IMG/VR virus record: IMGVR_UViG_3300020451_001851 | Span: 1-50,653 of that record | Length of the DNA stretch: 50,653 nucleotides | Source: a virus | Direction: 5' to 3' (one strand) | Shown: piece by piece, positions 24,475 to 33,008 of the stretch | Numbering within the stretch: the first letter of the stretch is position 1 | Layout: each line of letters opens with the position of its first letter | Position numbers and translations under genes: made by a program | The notes under the pieces: model-generated | The model's input: only the letters and a program-made list of their open reading frames with translations | What the model was told of the DNA's origin: nothing | Databases searched by the model: none

Positions 24475-24705
24475 ATGTCAAAAACAGGCAGAGAAAAACT
24501 AAAGAGCTGGCGCGAGTCAGCTCAAAACTTTTTAAGAGAAACGCTAAACTCTAACATGACACCAAAAGAACGAAAGCAAGCTTGGGAATCCCTAACAGAA
24601 CCAAAACCGACATGGGAAACTTTTAAGATAATGTTAGGACATCACAGAGACCCTGACACTGTGCTAAAAAAATGGCGAGCGTGGAACTCCAAAAAATCCT
24701 CGTAA
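24475..24705 (+). CDS. Small basic helical protein; stop codon supplied by palindromic element
   Basis: 76 residues, basic and Trp-rich (KSWRESAQNFLRE, KKWRAWNSKKSS). It starts 2 nt after the membrane-protein stop with a weak GGAG upstream. Its TAA stop is the GTAA at the left edge of the first tripartite palindromic element, so the element sits exactly at the gene's 3' end. Confidence 0.7.
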   Translation: MSKTGREKLKSWRESAQNFLRETLNSNMTPKERKQAWESLTEPKPTWETFKIMLGHHRDPDTVLKKWRAWNSKKSS

Positions 24706-24781
24706 GTCGTTGATACTGAAGGAGTTACGCGGGCGCGGCATGCCGCCGTGGCTGTAACTCGTTGATAATCAAGTACTTACA
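24701..24781. repeat. Tripartite palindromic element, copy 1
   Basis: Left hairpin (arm GTAAGTCGTTGA, loop TAC, imperfect right arm), GC core containing GCGGCATGCCGC, right hairpin starting 52 bp after the left. It is followed by a conserved AAC/AAGTTTTTACG-type tail and the CTTGTCAA array. Both arms have changes at the positions that vary between copies (5, 8, 11). Confidence 0.9.
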
Positions 24782-24799
24782 GAACTTTTACGCAAAAGC

Positions 24800-24874
24800 T
24801 TGTCAAATAAAAAATCAAAAAAACTTGTCAAGAAAAAAAACAAAAAAAGTTGTCAAGTAAAAAACAATAAAAAA
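24800..24874. repeat. 25-bp tandem array of TTGTCAA plus A-tracts
   Basis: TTGTCAA(G) recurs at 24800, 24825 and 24850 at an exact 25-bp period, each followed by ~16 A-rich bases. CTTGTCAAG is a 9-bp palindrome, so it could be a dimer-binding operator in bent DNA. Similar single or double copies follow other palindromic elements (near 25930, 25957, 26778, 29740). Confidence 0.75.
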
Positions 24875-24899
24875 AAATTCTTTTTTTTACCTTTAGGGC

Positions 24900-24934
24900 T
24901 TGCAATAAACAAAAAAATACTGTATGCTTACATC
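24900..24934 (+). promoter_or_regulatory. Leaderless-type sigma70 promoter
   Basis: TTGCAA (24900-24905), 17-nt spacer, TATGCT (24923-24928), 6 nt to ATG at 24935; upstream region near-identical to that at 22947. Confidence 0.82.
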
Positions 24935-25201
24935 ATGAAAATAAATAAATCAGATCTTGAATGGTTCAATAACCCAGTAATCGAATTCACAAATGGCGAC
25001 AGAACTCACTGCATTGGTGAAGTGTTAGAGATCCATGACGATGAGCATGGTGTCTGGGTCGATGTCGATGTTGACCGCTCTATGAATATCGAAATCGATG
25101 TTTCTCGTGGTGTTGACCTTAAGGACATCACCGAGGTCATCGACCCAGAGGAGGCAGTTGAAAGGGGCTTGATCGATGAGTCGGTCGGGCTTCTATGCTA
25201 A
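24935..25201 (+). CDS. Small acidic early protein, unknown
   Basis: 88 residues, very acidic (EIHDDEHGVWVDVDVDRS), beta-rich, start MKINKSDLEWF fixed by the promoter. An in-frame ATG at 24800 would make the array of TTGTCAA coding for Lys/Asn and is not favoured. Confidence 0.75.
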   Translation: MKINKSDLEWFNNPVIEFTNGDRTHCIGEVLEIHDDEHGVWVDVDVDRSMNIEIDVSRGVDLKDITEVIDPEEAVERGLIDESVGLLC

Positions 25202-25220
25202 AAAAAACATAAATAAAAGT

Positions 25221-25255
25221 TTGCTTTTAAATAAAATCTGGATTATACTTAGATC
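25221..25255 (+). promoter_or_regulatory. Leaderless-type sigma70 promoter
   Basis: TTGCTT (25221-25226), 17-nt spacer, TATACT (25244-25249), 6 nt to ATG at 25256. Confidence 0.85.
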
Positions 25256-25600
25256 ATGAAAAACAACATTAAAAAAGATTCCGTCGAAGCCACTAAAATC
25301 GTAAAAATGACCGAGGCTGCCGCGTCCAAAGTTGAAACTATGGACATCCTTCGCGTCACGCATTTCCCAAATGAACATATCCGCCTTCAAGTTTCTTTGA
25401 TACTTTCAGATCTTGAGCGCGAGTTTAAGTTTTCATTTTCTGATCTTGATCGCGAGCGCTGCGGGAAGATCTTAGACAAGGCCCATCAGATCCACCTTGC
25501 TAAGGGCAAAAATGGCCTAGATCGCTTTGTAGATGCAGCTCGTCGCCGCTTCTATGACTACAGTGGCAAGGGTGTTGGAGGCATTTTTAATCAGCCTTAA
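25256..25600 (+). CDS. Small helical basic protein, unknown
   Basis: 114 residues, helical; VSLILSDLERE near residue 55 resembles ISLIVRDLNLE in the protein at 27061, so the two may be distant paralogues. C-terminal Gly-rich tail (DYSGKGVGGIFNQP). Followed by a strong intrinsic terminator. Confidence 0.75.
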   Translation: MKNNIKKDSVEATKIVKMTEAAASKVETMDILRVTHFPNEHIRLQVSLILSDLEREFKFSFSDLDRERCGKILDKAHQIHLAKGKNGLDRFVDAARRRFYDYSGKGVGGIFNQP

Positions 25601-25612
25601 AAACTTCACAGG

Positions 25613-25642
25613 CCCGTACCCGAAAGGGTGCGGGTTTTTTTT
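25613..25642 (+). terminator. Intrinsic terminator
   Basis: CCCGTACCC-GAAA-GGGTGCGGG (9 bp, one G-U) followed by eight T, 12 nt after the stop codon at 25600. Confidence 0.95.
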
Positions 25643-31897: not shown

Positions 31898-31922
31898 GAA
31901 TAACAAAACCAGAAAAAATAAG

Positions 31923-32147
31923 ATGGGTTGGAGACCAATAAAAGAAGAATTAATTTTACACCGTTGGACTTGTTCGTCTTGCGTTAAATCAGCAGAGTTC
32001 AGTCCTAATTGGTGTGCAGAAAATGGAAGTCCTGTTTGCATTTGTGGGGTTGACATGGAATATGTAGAAACACTTTTGGATTGTAAGTTTGATCCAATAA
32101 GAGAAACTTTAGTAATATCAGTAAGAAAAGAAAAAAATGACAGCTAA
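31923..32147 (+). CDS. Small zinc-ribbon-like protein
   Basis: 74 residues with WTCSSCVKS and VCICGVD, four Cys that could form one zinc site. Its end overlaps the next gene by 11 nt. Confidence 0.72.
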   Translation: MGWRPIKEELILHRWTCSSCVKSAEFSPNWCAENGSPVCICGVDMEYVETLLDCKFDPIRETLVISVRKEKNDS

Positions 32148-32406
32148 TCACACAAATCAAATTCGTGTTTTCCTAGAGAAGACAGATACTTTACTAGATA
32201 TCAAATACGATAATAGCAAAGGTATAACTCATGCAATCAAAACATCCGAAGCAAAGATGTTTAAGAGAATCCCAAATATAGATGGATCTTCTCAATATGA
32301 TGAACTACCGCCGTACTTTGTAGAGAATGACCCGATAGAAAAAATGGTTATAAAGTTGATCTATGAAGATAGGCGTGGTAGGCTCAAGCAGGGCATGAGC
32401 ATTTAA
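32137..32406 (+). CDS. Small hypothetical protein
   Basis: 89 residues, start MTANHTNQIRVFLEK, basic, no motif. The 11-nt overlap with the gene upstream indicates coupling. Confidence 0.7.
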   Translation: MTANHTNQIRVFLEKTDTLLDIKYDNSKGITHAIKTSEAKMFKRIPNIDGSSQYDELPPYFVENDPIEKMVIKLIYEDRRGRLKQGMSI

Positions 32407-32410
32407 AAAA

Positions 32411-32485
32411 ATGCCAAGTGATATAATCCTTTTTAGTTTAATAGTAATCACACTTTTTGTAACAGTAATTCAGTTTTTAACATGA
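32411..32485 (+). CDS. 24-residue membrane mini-protein
   Basis: An ORF of 24 codons starting MPSDIILFSLIV: two charged residues at most and one hydrophobic segment long enough to span a membrane. Its stop overlaps the ATG of the next gene (ATGA), strong support for translation of both. Role unknown. Confidence 0.6.
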   Translation: MPSDIILFSLIVITLFVTVIQFLT

Positions 32486-32667
32486 GAAGTATTCCACACG
32501 AACCAGATATAATAGATCAGGAAAAAAAACAAACATACGAAAATCTTTCTAAGGTTGTCGGGGATGCTTGCGAAGCATGGCTTCGCAAGAAGGGAATAGG
32601 AACATACGGCTTTAGAGATCAAATGAATAACAGCTATAAAGAACAAATAGCTAAAAATAAAAAATAA
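32482..32667 (+). CDS. Small basic protein, unknown
   Basis: 61 residues, helical, with DACEAWLRKKGI; coupled to the 24-residue mini-protein by ATGA. Last gene of the operon before the structured RNA at 32685. Confidence 0.7.
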   Translation: MRSIPHEPDIIDQEKKQTYENLSKVVGDACEAWLRKKGIGTYGFRDQMNNSYKEQIAKNKK

Positions 32668-32684
32668 TTTGTTTTGGTAAATTG

Positions 32685-32788
32685 TGCATCAGTTAGGAGT
32701 AGAGTCTGGGGAGATCCCAGAACGAGGGTCCACGGGGTTCTCTCATAATACCCTTTTCTTTCCCTCTGTTGATCACCTAGCTGGTGCA
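32685..32788 (+). ncRNA. Structured RNA, ~104 nt, closed by a 13-bp stem
   Basis: TGCATCAGTTAGG pairs with CCTAGCTGGTGCA over 13 bp with two G-U pairs. Inside are a perfect TCTGGG-GAGAT-CCCAGA hairpin and a GAGGG/CCCTC stem. A compact multibranch fold in a gap between two small genes. No known family recognised. Confidence 0.6.
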
Positions 32789-32800
32789 TAAAAAAAGATT

Positions 32801-32983
32801 ATGAAAAAGAAAAAACCAAAATTGCCGACTAACTCACTAGAGGGTAGAAATATGGTGCGCCACCCGATGCCACCACCAACCACTAGCCACACGGATAAAA
32901 AGAAGCGATTAAATAAGAAAAAATGCCGTAAGTCGTTGAATACCAACGAGTTAGGCGGCGGCGGCATACCGCGGGCGGTGTAA
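32801..32983 (+). CDS. Small very basic protein; C-terminus encoded by the palindromic element
   Basis: 60 residues, very rich in Lys. TTSHTDKKKRLNKKKCRK resembles the conserved end of small basic phage proteins of the PDKKKYNRKK type. The last 18 residues (from RKSLNTNEL) and the stop codon come from palindromic element copy 7, so the original C-terminus was replaced or extended. Confidence 0.6.
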   Translation: MKKKKPKLPTNSLEGRNMVRHPMPPPTTSHTDKKKRLNKKKCRKSLNTNELGGGGIPRAV

Positions 32984-33008
32984 CTCCCTAAGTATCAATG
33001 ACTTTCAG
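32927..33008. repeat. Tripartite palindromic element, copy 7
   Basis: Left arm GTAAGTCGTTGA with degenerate partner, core GCGGCATACCGC, right arm GTAACTCCCTAA with loop GTA, spacing 52 bp; degenerate but same architecture. Tail shares ACTTAAATAAAGTA-like sequence with copy 4. Marks the end of the rightward region, where transcripts converge. Confidence 0.8.

Follow-up and report, generated by a model that had tools for sequence, protein, structure and literature searches.

A repeated intergenic element, built of two 25-bp dyads around a GC-rich core, marks one little-known lineage of bacterial viruses. The arms are universal in this lineage, and the core is private to each virus. Judging from sequence comparisons, we tentatively favour, at somewhat less than even confidence, a double-stranded-DNA boundary or insulator element that would lie between small-gene cassettes, would be bound by a putative dimeric protein and would thereby affect transcription.

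The window, that is the whole stretch of DNA analysed, is the complete IMG/VR record IMGVR_UViG_3300020451_001851 of 50,653 bases. No end repeats are reported for it, so the record may be a genome fragment; the other IMG/VR records compared are possibly fragments as well. The window encodes a tailed phage with a genomic GC content of 36%, against which the GC-rich element cores stand out. The features discussed below are collected in Table 1.

Table 1. Positions of the elements, their companion features and reference genes in the window
Feature	Coordinates	Strand	Details
Terminase	17211-19103
Sigma-like protein	21074-21754	(-)
PhoH	22119-22790
E1	24703-24779	(+)	dyad 24703-24727, core 24728-24754, dyad 24755-24779
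Tandem TGTCAA(G) motifs	24801-24857	(-)	CTTGACA toward E1; AT-rich tract downstream of E1
Extra cassette	24780-25748	(+)	promoter, ORFs 24937-25201 and 25256-25600, intrinsic terminator 25610-25637
E2	25749-25825	(+)	dyad 25749-25773, core 25774-25800, dyad 25801-25825
Solo dyad adjoining E2	25859-25883	(+)
Example promoter after an element	26005-26040	(+)	TTGACT-N17-TATACT, 6 nt, ATG; leaderless type
E3	26681-26758	(+)	dyad 26681-26705, core 26706-26733, dyad 26734-26758
E4	28182-28258	(+)	dyad 28182-28206, core 28207-28233, dyad 28234-28258
Solo dyad adjoining E4	28301-28325	(.)	loop orientation opposite
Intrinsic terminator-like site before E5	29562-29579
E5	29604-29680	(+)	dyad 29604-29628, core 29629-29655, dyad 29656-29680
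Intrinsic terminator before E6	30692-30713
E6	30771-30847	(+)	dyad 30771-30795, core 30796-30822, dyad 30823-30847
E7	32929-33005	(+)	dyad 32929-32953, core 32954-32980, degenerate dyad 32981-33005
Tail fibre	47639-50419

The window contains seven elements of about 77 bp and two solo dyads. Each element consists of a dyad near TAACTCGTTGATACTCAACGAGTTA, a core of 27-28 bp around GCGGCATGCCGC and a second dyad, with the dyads 52-53 bp apart from start to start; the inferred dyad half-site is TAASTCNYTGA. All seven copies and both solos described in an earlier note on this DNA are present, the copies within two bases of where they had been placed. The note had also rightly held that the regular layout goes beyond a random palindrome. 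The pattern gave 11 matches and its backwards-read control none; at a loose score, five Markov-shuffled versions of the window together gave 3 chance matches. The first TAA of E1 is the stop codon of the ORF at 24475-24705, and E7 sits at the convergent border between the rightward and leftward gene blocks. The E6 core is inverted relative to the E2 core; both core orientations occur within one genome.

An element scan identified 403 copies in 96 uncultured viral sequences. The dyad pattern matched 98 IMG/VR stretches and no more than 5 in the 84,980 species genomes of bacteria and archaea, and most of the viral matches had the same layout with different GC-rich cores. A looser scan gave 410 pairs; in 282 the two starts were exactly 50 bp apart, and the spacings fell into classes of 34, 42, 50 and 58 bp. 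With a sequence model built from 53 copies, all 20 records tested had several copies, grouped in one or two genome regions. Most of these 20 records also have the packaging and capsid gene set of the window in common; since the longer records share these genes, we regard the element as a signature of one phage lineage. The core pattern had no match in bacterial genomes, and 50,697 phage and 72,556 plasmid records, which represent cultured phages and plasmids, gave chance-level matches only. The earlier failure to recognise a named element is borne out, as Rfam gave no match at gathering score, the phage and plasmid records stayed at chance level, and nothing similar was found in open-licence papers. 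Beyond the viral records, the only tripartite copies found come from a single Verrucomicrobiales MAG, where they lie on two contigs that look phage-like. Both contigs carry the same phage genes as the lineage, which makes a Verrucomicrobiota bacterium the probable host, although a binning error is possible. No integrase (Phage_integrase), Resolvase or REP transposase (Y1_Tnp) was found in the 20 phage records, and a lineage devoid of integration genes may still be capable of plasmid-like lysogeny.

The arms and the core differ in how they vary between viruses. We compared 40 non-redundant genomes with 50-bp spacing against 200 permutations. Core identity was 0.711 within a genome and 0.561 between genomes, and did not exceed 0.578 in any permutation. 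At the variable arm sites there was almost no effect, with an identity of 0.628 within a genome and 0.604 when permuted.

The elements are placed between genes. With genes called by a home-made, simple codon-usage script, 385 of the 403 elements were clear of genes and none was inside one, compared with 71% inside for random 75-mers. Over the 96 sequences, 141 elements lay between two rightward genes, 135 between two leftward genes, 63 in convergent and 20 in divergent gaps; the claim that copies never occur in leftward clusters is right inside the window and wrong over the larger set. Convergent gaps were occupied far more often than divergent ones (63 of 126 versus 20 of 154, p=1.5e-11), and an intrinsic terminator stood between the gene end and the element in 60 of 296 cases, compared with 13 of 193 plain gaps (p=2.6e-5); the sequences and copies are related by descent, so that these and the other p-values given here are anti-conservative and overstate independence. 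Genes that follow an element have a close promoter modestly more often (33% versus 22-24%, p about 0.01). A frequent companion of the element is an AT-rich tract with CTTGACA boxes directed inward (253 toward the element versus 39 away), most often at distances of 39 and 28 nt from its edge. These boxes were considered as sigma-70 promoters and rejected: the -35 box is strongly placed, and at the spacing expected for a -10 box no clear consensus appears. A direction code formed by the outer TAAC or TAAG was rejected as well, as the outer ends prefer one each and the link to the gene side is weak.

The preference for gene ends and convergent gaps would also suit an RNA element whose 3'-UTR hairpins serve as a transcription terminator, an mRNA stabiliser or a small RNA. 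The inward CTTGACA boxes could transcribe such an element, and several copies have low folding energies. We give this reading a low probability. The element itself could pass for an intrinsic terminator in no more than 6 of 296 cases, and the boxes lack the -10 partner noted above. Minimum free energy folds vary between copies: among the window copies, clean folding into three hairpins is seen only in E5 and E6, whereas E1, E2, E3 and E7 each fold into one long hairpin. RNAalifold gave no consensus structure for the element. Among 144 non-redundant copies, arm pairing was near the level expected from the column compositions (0.57 versus 0.53 for positions 4-22, and 0.72 versus 0.75 for positions 8-18), and there were almost no compensatory changes in the dyads. 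The paired positions counted within hairpins showed a small excess, 84.3% versus 83.1% in shuffled sequences. Sense-strand mismatches in 231 elements between same-direction genes comprised 230 G-U and 207 A-C pairs (p=0.29), and as these are equal, no RNA strand is favoured. With arm pairing near chance and no strand asymmetry, the description of the arms as RNA hairpins is not supported.

The substitution pattern of the dyads is that of a predicted dimer site. At position 8, one half-site was changed in 81 and the other in 74 cases, and both were changed in 6, compared with about 15 expected from the counts. Position 4 is C in 55% and G in 45% of the dyads, almost never A or T, and is uncoupled from its partner position. 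Pairing between the two dyads at variable positions is below expectation, as if one long palindrome were avoided. The earlier note had described the two hairpins as direct rather than inverted repeats, which is true of the majority (163 elements with the same loop orientation) and fails as a rule, because 67 elements have opposite orientations.

In the boundary reading that we favour, each 25-bp dyad would be a site for a dimeric DNA-binding protein, and the paired sites, mostly exactly 50 bp apart, would flank the core common to the copies of a genome. The element would stand between self-contained units, each with a promoter, one to a few small genes and often a terminator. The bound protein would act as a roadblock or insulator that holds neighbouring transcription units apart, and the repeated unit could provide homology for the gain or loss of whole cassettes. 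The anatomy, the distribution, the dimer-like substitutions, the lack of constraint on RNA structure, the genome-specific core, the position at boundaries and one cassette gain or loss are observed; binding by a protein, its roadblock action and a part in recombination are inferred. Cooperative looping, with two dimers on one helix face, was considered and rejected, since the spacing classes advance in steps of about 8 bp and keep no constant helical phase. In a search for the binding protein, the universal candidates looked like sigma-like, Zn-ribbon, PhoH ATPase and packaging proteins, and no binder was identified among them; the sigma-like protein, the Zn-ribbon protein, PhoH and the packaging proteins are universal phage proteins that adjoin the element-bearing region. 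A more elaborate two-key system might also be imagined, in which a shared protein docks on the universal dyads and a second, lineage-matched factor (or pairing between copies) reads the core, so that recognition, insulation or exchange of cassettes would be confined to elements of one type; we consider it speculative and improbable.

Phages carry small unknown genes by the dozen, and how these stay interchangeable and independently expressed is an open question. With a border mark that is conserved and can be counted, and that has universal arms and a private core, the limits of cassettes can be read directly from metagenomes. Its short pattern allows relatives of this phage lineage to be found, and the element offers a defined DNA target for finding its putative binding protein.

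The cassettes between successive elements mostly contain 0-5, and largely 0-3, genes, and 59 of them consist of a single gene. One clean gain or loss of a cassette, bounded by the element, is seen when the window is compared with two relatives (G001 and G020). Both of them lack the extra cassette and E2 and have a single element between the genes that flank this region in the window, with matching DNA to the left and to the right; the unit duplicated in the window is the element plus its TGTCAAG motif. These observations, together with the core common to copies within a genome and the tendency of the element to stay with the gene 3' side even where the neighbour differs, agree with an alternative in which the element is a linker like the PeSL modules described below, a repeated homology block for small-gene cassette shuffling by homologous recombination, and protein binding is secondary. 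We regard this alternative as rather unlikely. The ends of BLAST matches across relatives were not enriched at elements compared with other intergenic gaps, and the conservation of neighbours across elements (9%) was not below that elsewhere (5-9%); a general recombination hot spot at the elements is not supported by these results. Moreover, gene conversion should homogenise the arms along with the core, whereas the arms show much less homogenisation. There is thus one example of recombination through the element, which is too little to assign it as the main role.

Site-specific recombination of cassettes was rejected because no integrase or resolvase was found in the 20 phage records. Integron attC sites depend on AAC/GTT triplets and a tyrosine recombinase. 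They resemble the phage element in having universal short end motifs, a lineage-specific middle and small-gene cassettes between copies; however, the triplets are not conserved in the phage element, which has G or C there, and the phage records yielded no tyrosine recombinase. Among known systems, the promoter early stem-loop (PeSL) cassettes of T4-like phages (Arbiol 2010, Comeau 2014, as described in PMC4503421) offer another comparison. Both are intergenic modules repeated where virulent phages shuffle genes, and both combine a palindrome at one side with a promoter at the other; the phage element does lie between small genes in such a region. PeSL has a single stem-loop that is a terminator, in contrast to two dyads around a GC core that rarely qualify as one; in the phage element the promoter is roughly 60 nt or more downstream, and breakpoints show no overall enrichment at the repeats, beside the one clear cassette change.

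The stoperators of cluster A mycobacteriophages comprise 20-30 mostly intergenic sites per genome that block transcription elongation; each is a single, asymmetric 13-bp site, all point the same way relative to transcription, and they belong to temperate phages with a repressor (PMC3029335, PMC6550527). The phage element is likewise repeated and mostly intergenic, and protein binding is predicted for it. It differs in its paired palindromic dyads and in having no orientation rule, with a weak bias and a core that flips within the window. Stoperator phages are temperate, whereas the phages with the element lack Phage_integrase and Resolvase in 20 records and yielded no candidate repressor. The lineage-specific part differs too: the stoperator binding motif drifts with the lineage, while in the phage element it is the core that does so and not the dyad.

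Outside the phages, solo dyads at two mismatches make up a repeat family in a few Verrucomicrobiota genomes (66 copies in G253, 19 in G071 and 12 in G322; the reversed-pattern control gave 0), and 337 of the 388 Verrucomicrobiota genomes sampled had no dyad at this threshold. The arms are therefore not unique to phages. All chromosomal copies examined were solo and without a core, and the uncoupled G or C at position 4 was kept. Some overlap stop codons or adjoin tRNA genes or promoters, and roughly one in three falls within a called ORF. The possibility that the element is a known REP family thus applies to the single dyad, a REP-like chromosomal repeat in a few Verrucomicrobiota, and not to the tripartite element, which appears, from the genomes compared, to be unique to phages.

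REPIN, BIME and REP sequences are intergenic palindrome pairs near gene ends that form genome-specific families (PMC3116915, PMC2817692). The extragenic position of the phage element, its paired palindromes, its genome-specific families and the chromosomal solo copies recall them, and one might suppose a miniature mobile element of REPIN or MITE type that a transposase, supplied in trans, has multiplied in each phage genome. This seems improbable to us. REPIN pairs are inverted, in contrast to the mostly direct phage dyads with their fixed 50-bp spacing, and REPIN hairpins are kept by compensatory changes (PMC3116915), of which the phage dyads have almost none. The REPIN partner, a Y1 transposase in the same genome, was found in 0 of 20 phage records, as were integrase and resolvase. 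Transposition of the REP type was rejected for this reason and for the lack of a consistent partner of the chromosomal copies, as the dyad-bearing genomes G071 and G322 have no Y1_Tnp. Orthologous element slots are retained between relatives, and arm similarity barely rises within a genome, contrary to what recent copies would show.

The solo chromosomal sites, some of them at promoters (argS in Akkermansia-like genomes), carry the same dyad code, including the uncoupled position 4, and this could be expected if the dyads formed a decoy or hijack array that mimics operators of a host (Verrucomicrobiota) regulator and titrates or recruits it. We consider this very unlikely: a Verrucomicrobiota host is only probable, the dyad is absent from most of the Verrucomicrobiota genomes sampled, and titration needs neither the strict spacing, nor the GC core, nor a position between cassettes.

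Several further observations were made in the chromosomes and in the window. In G253 (loci L215-L217 and L226-L242), the 66 solo dyads, several of them over stop codons, form a REP-like family of their own. In two Akkermansia-like genomes, at position 3001 of L220 and L223, a perfect dyad adjoins a TGTTCCACATGGAACA palindrome, and a consensus argS promoter follows downstream. A dyad directly follows the tRNA CCA end in several phages (L043, L072, L079, L105), and in the Verrucomicrobiota contig L219 it lies 2 nt after a tRNA gene. The sigma-like protein of the window resembles sigma-70 region 2 and has a conserved C-terminal HTH-like stretch; it has no close relative among solved structures, adjoins the terminase and is present in 18 of 22 records. 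Most of the small rightward genes at 22975-32482 have their own promoter, TTGnnn-N17-TATA(C/G)T, which ends 5-7 nt before the ATG, so that the mRNAs would be leaderless. Directly before E5, on the (+) strand, about 340 nt (29254-29590) contain no convincing gene, have a folding z-score of -3.0 and gave no match in Rfam; in related phages the ends are conserved and the middle is variable, with a terminator-like hairpin at the 3' side. This stretch is likely an unknown structured RNA. Further non-coding stretches, at 32668-32800 and 28928-29034, are conserved among close relatives.
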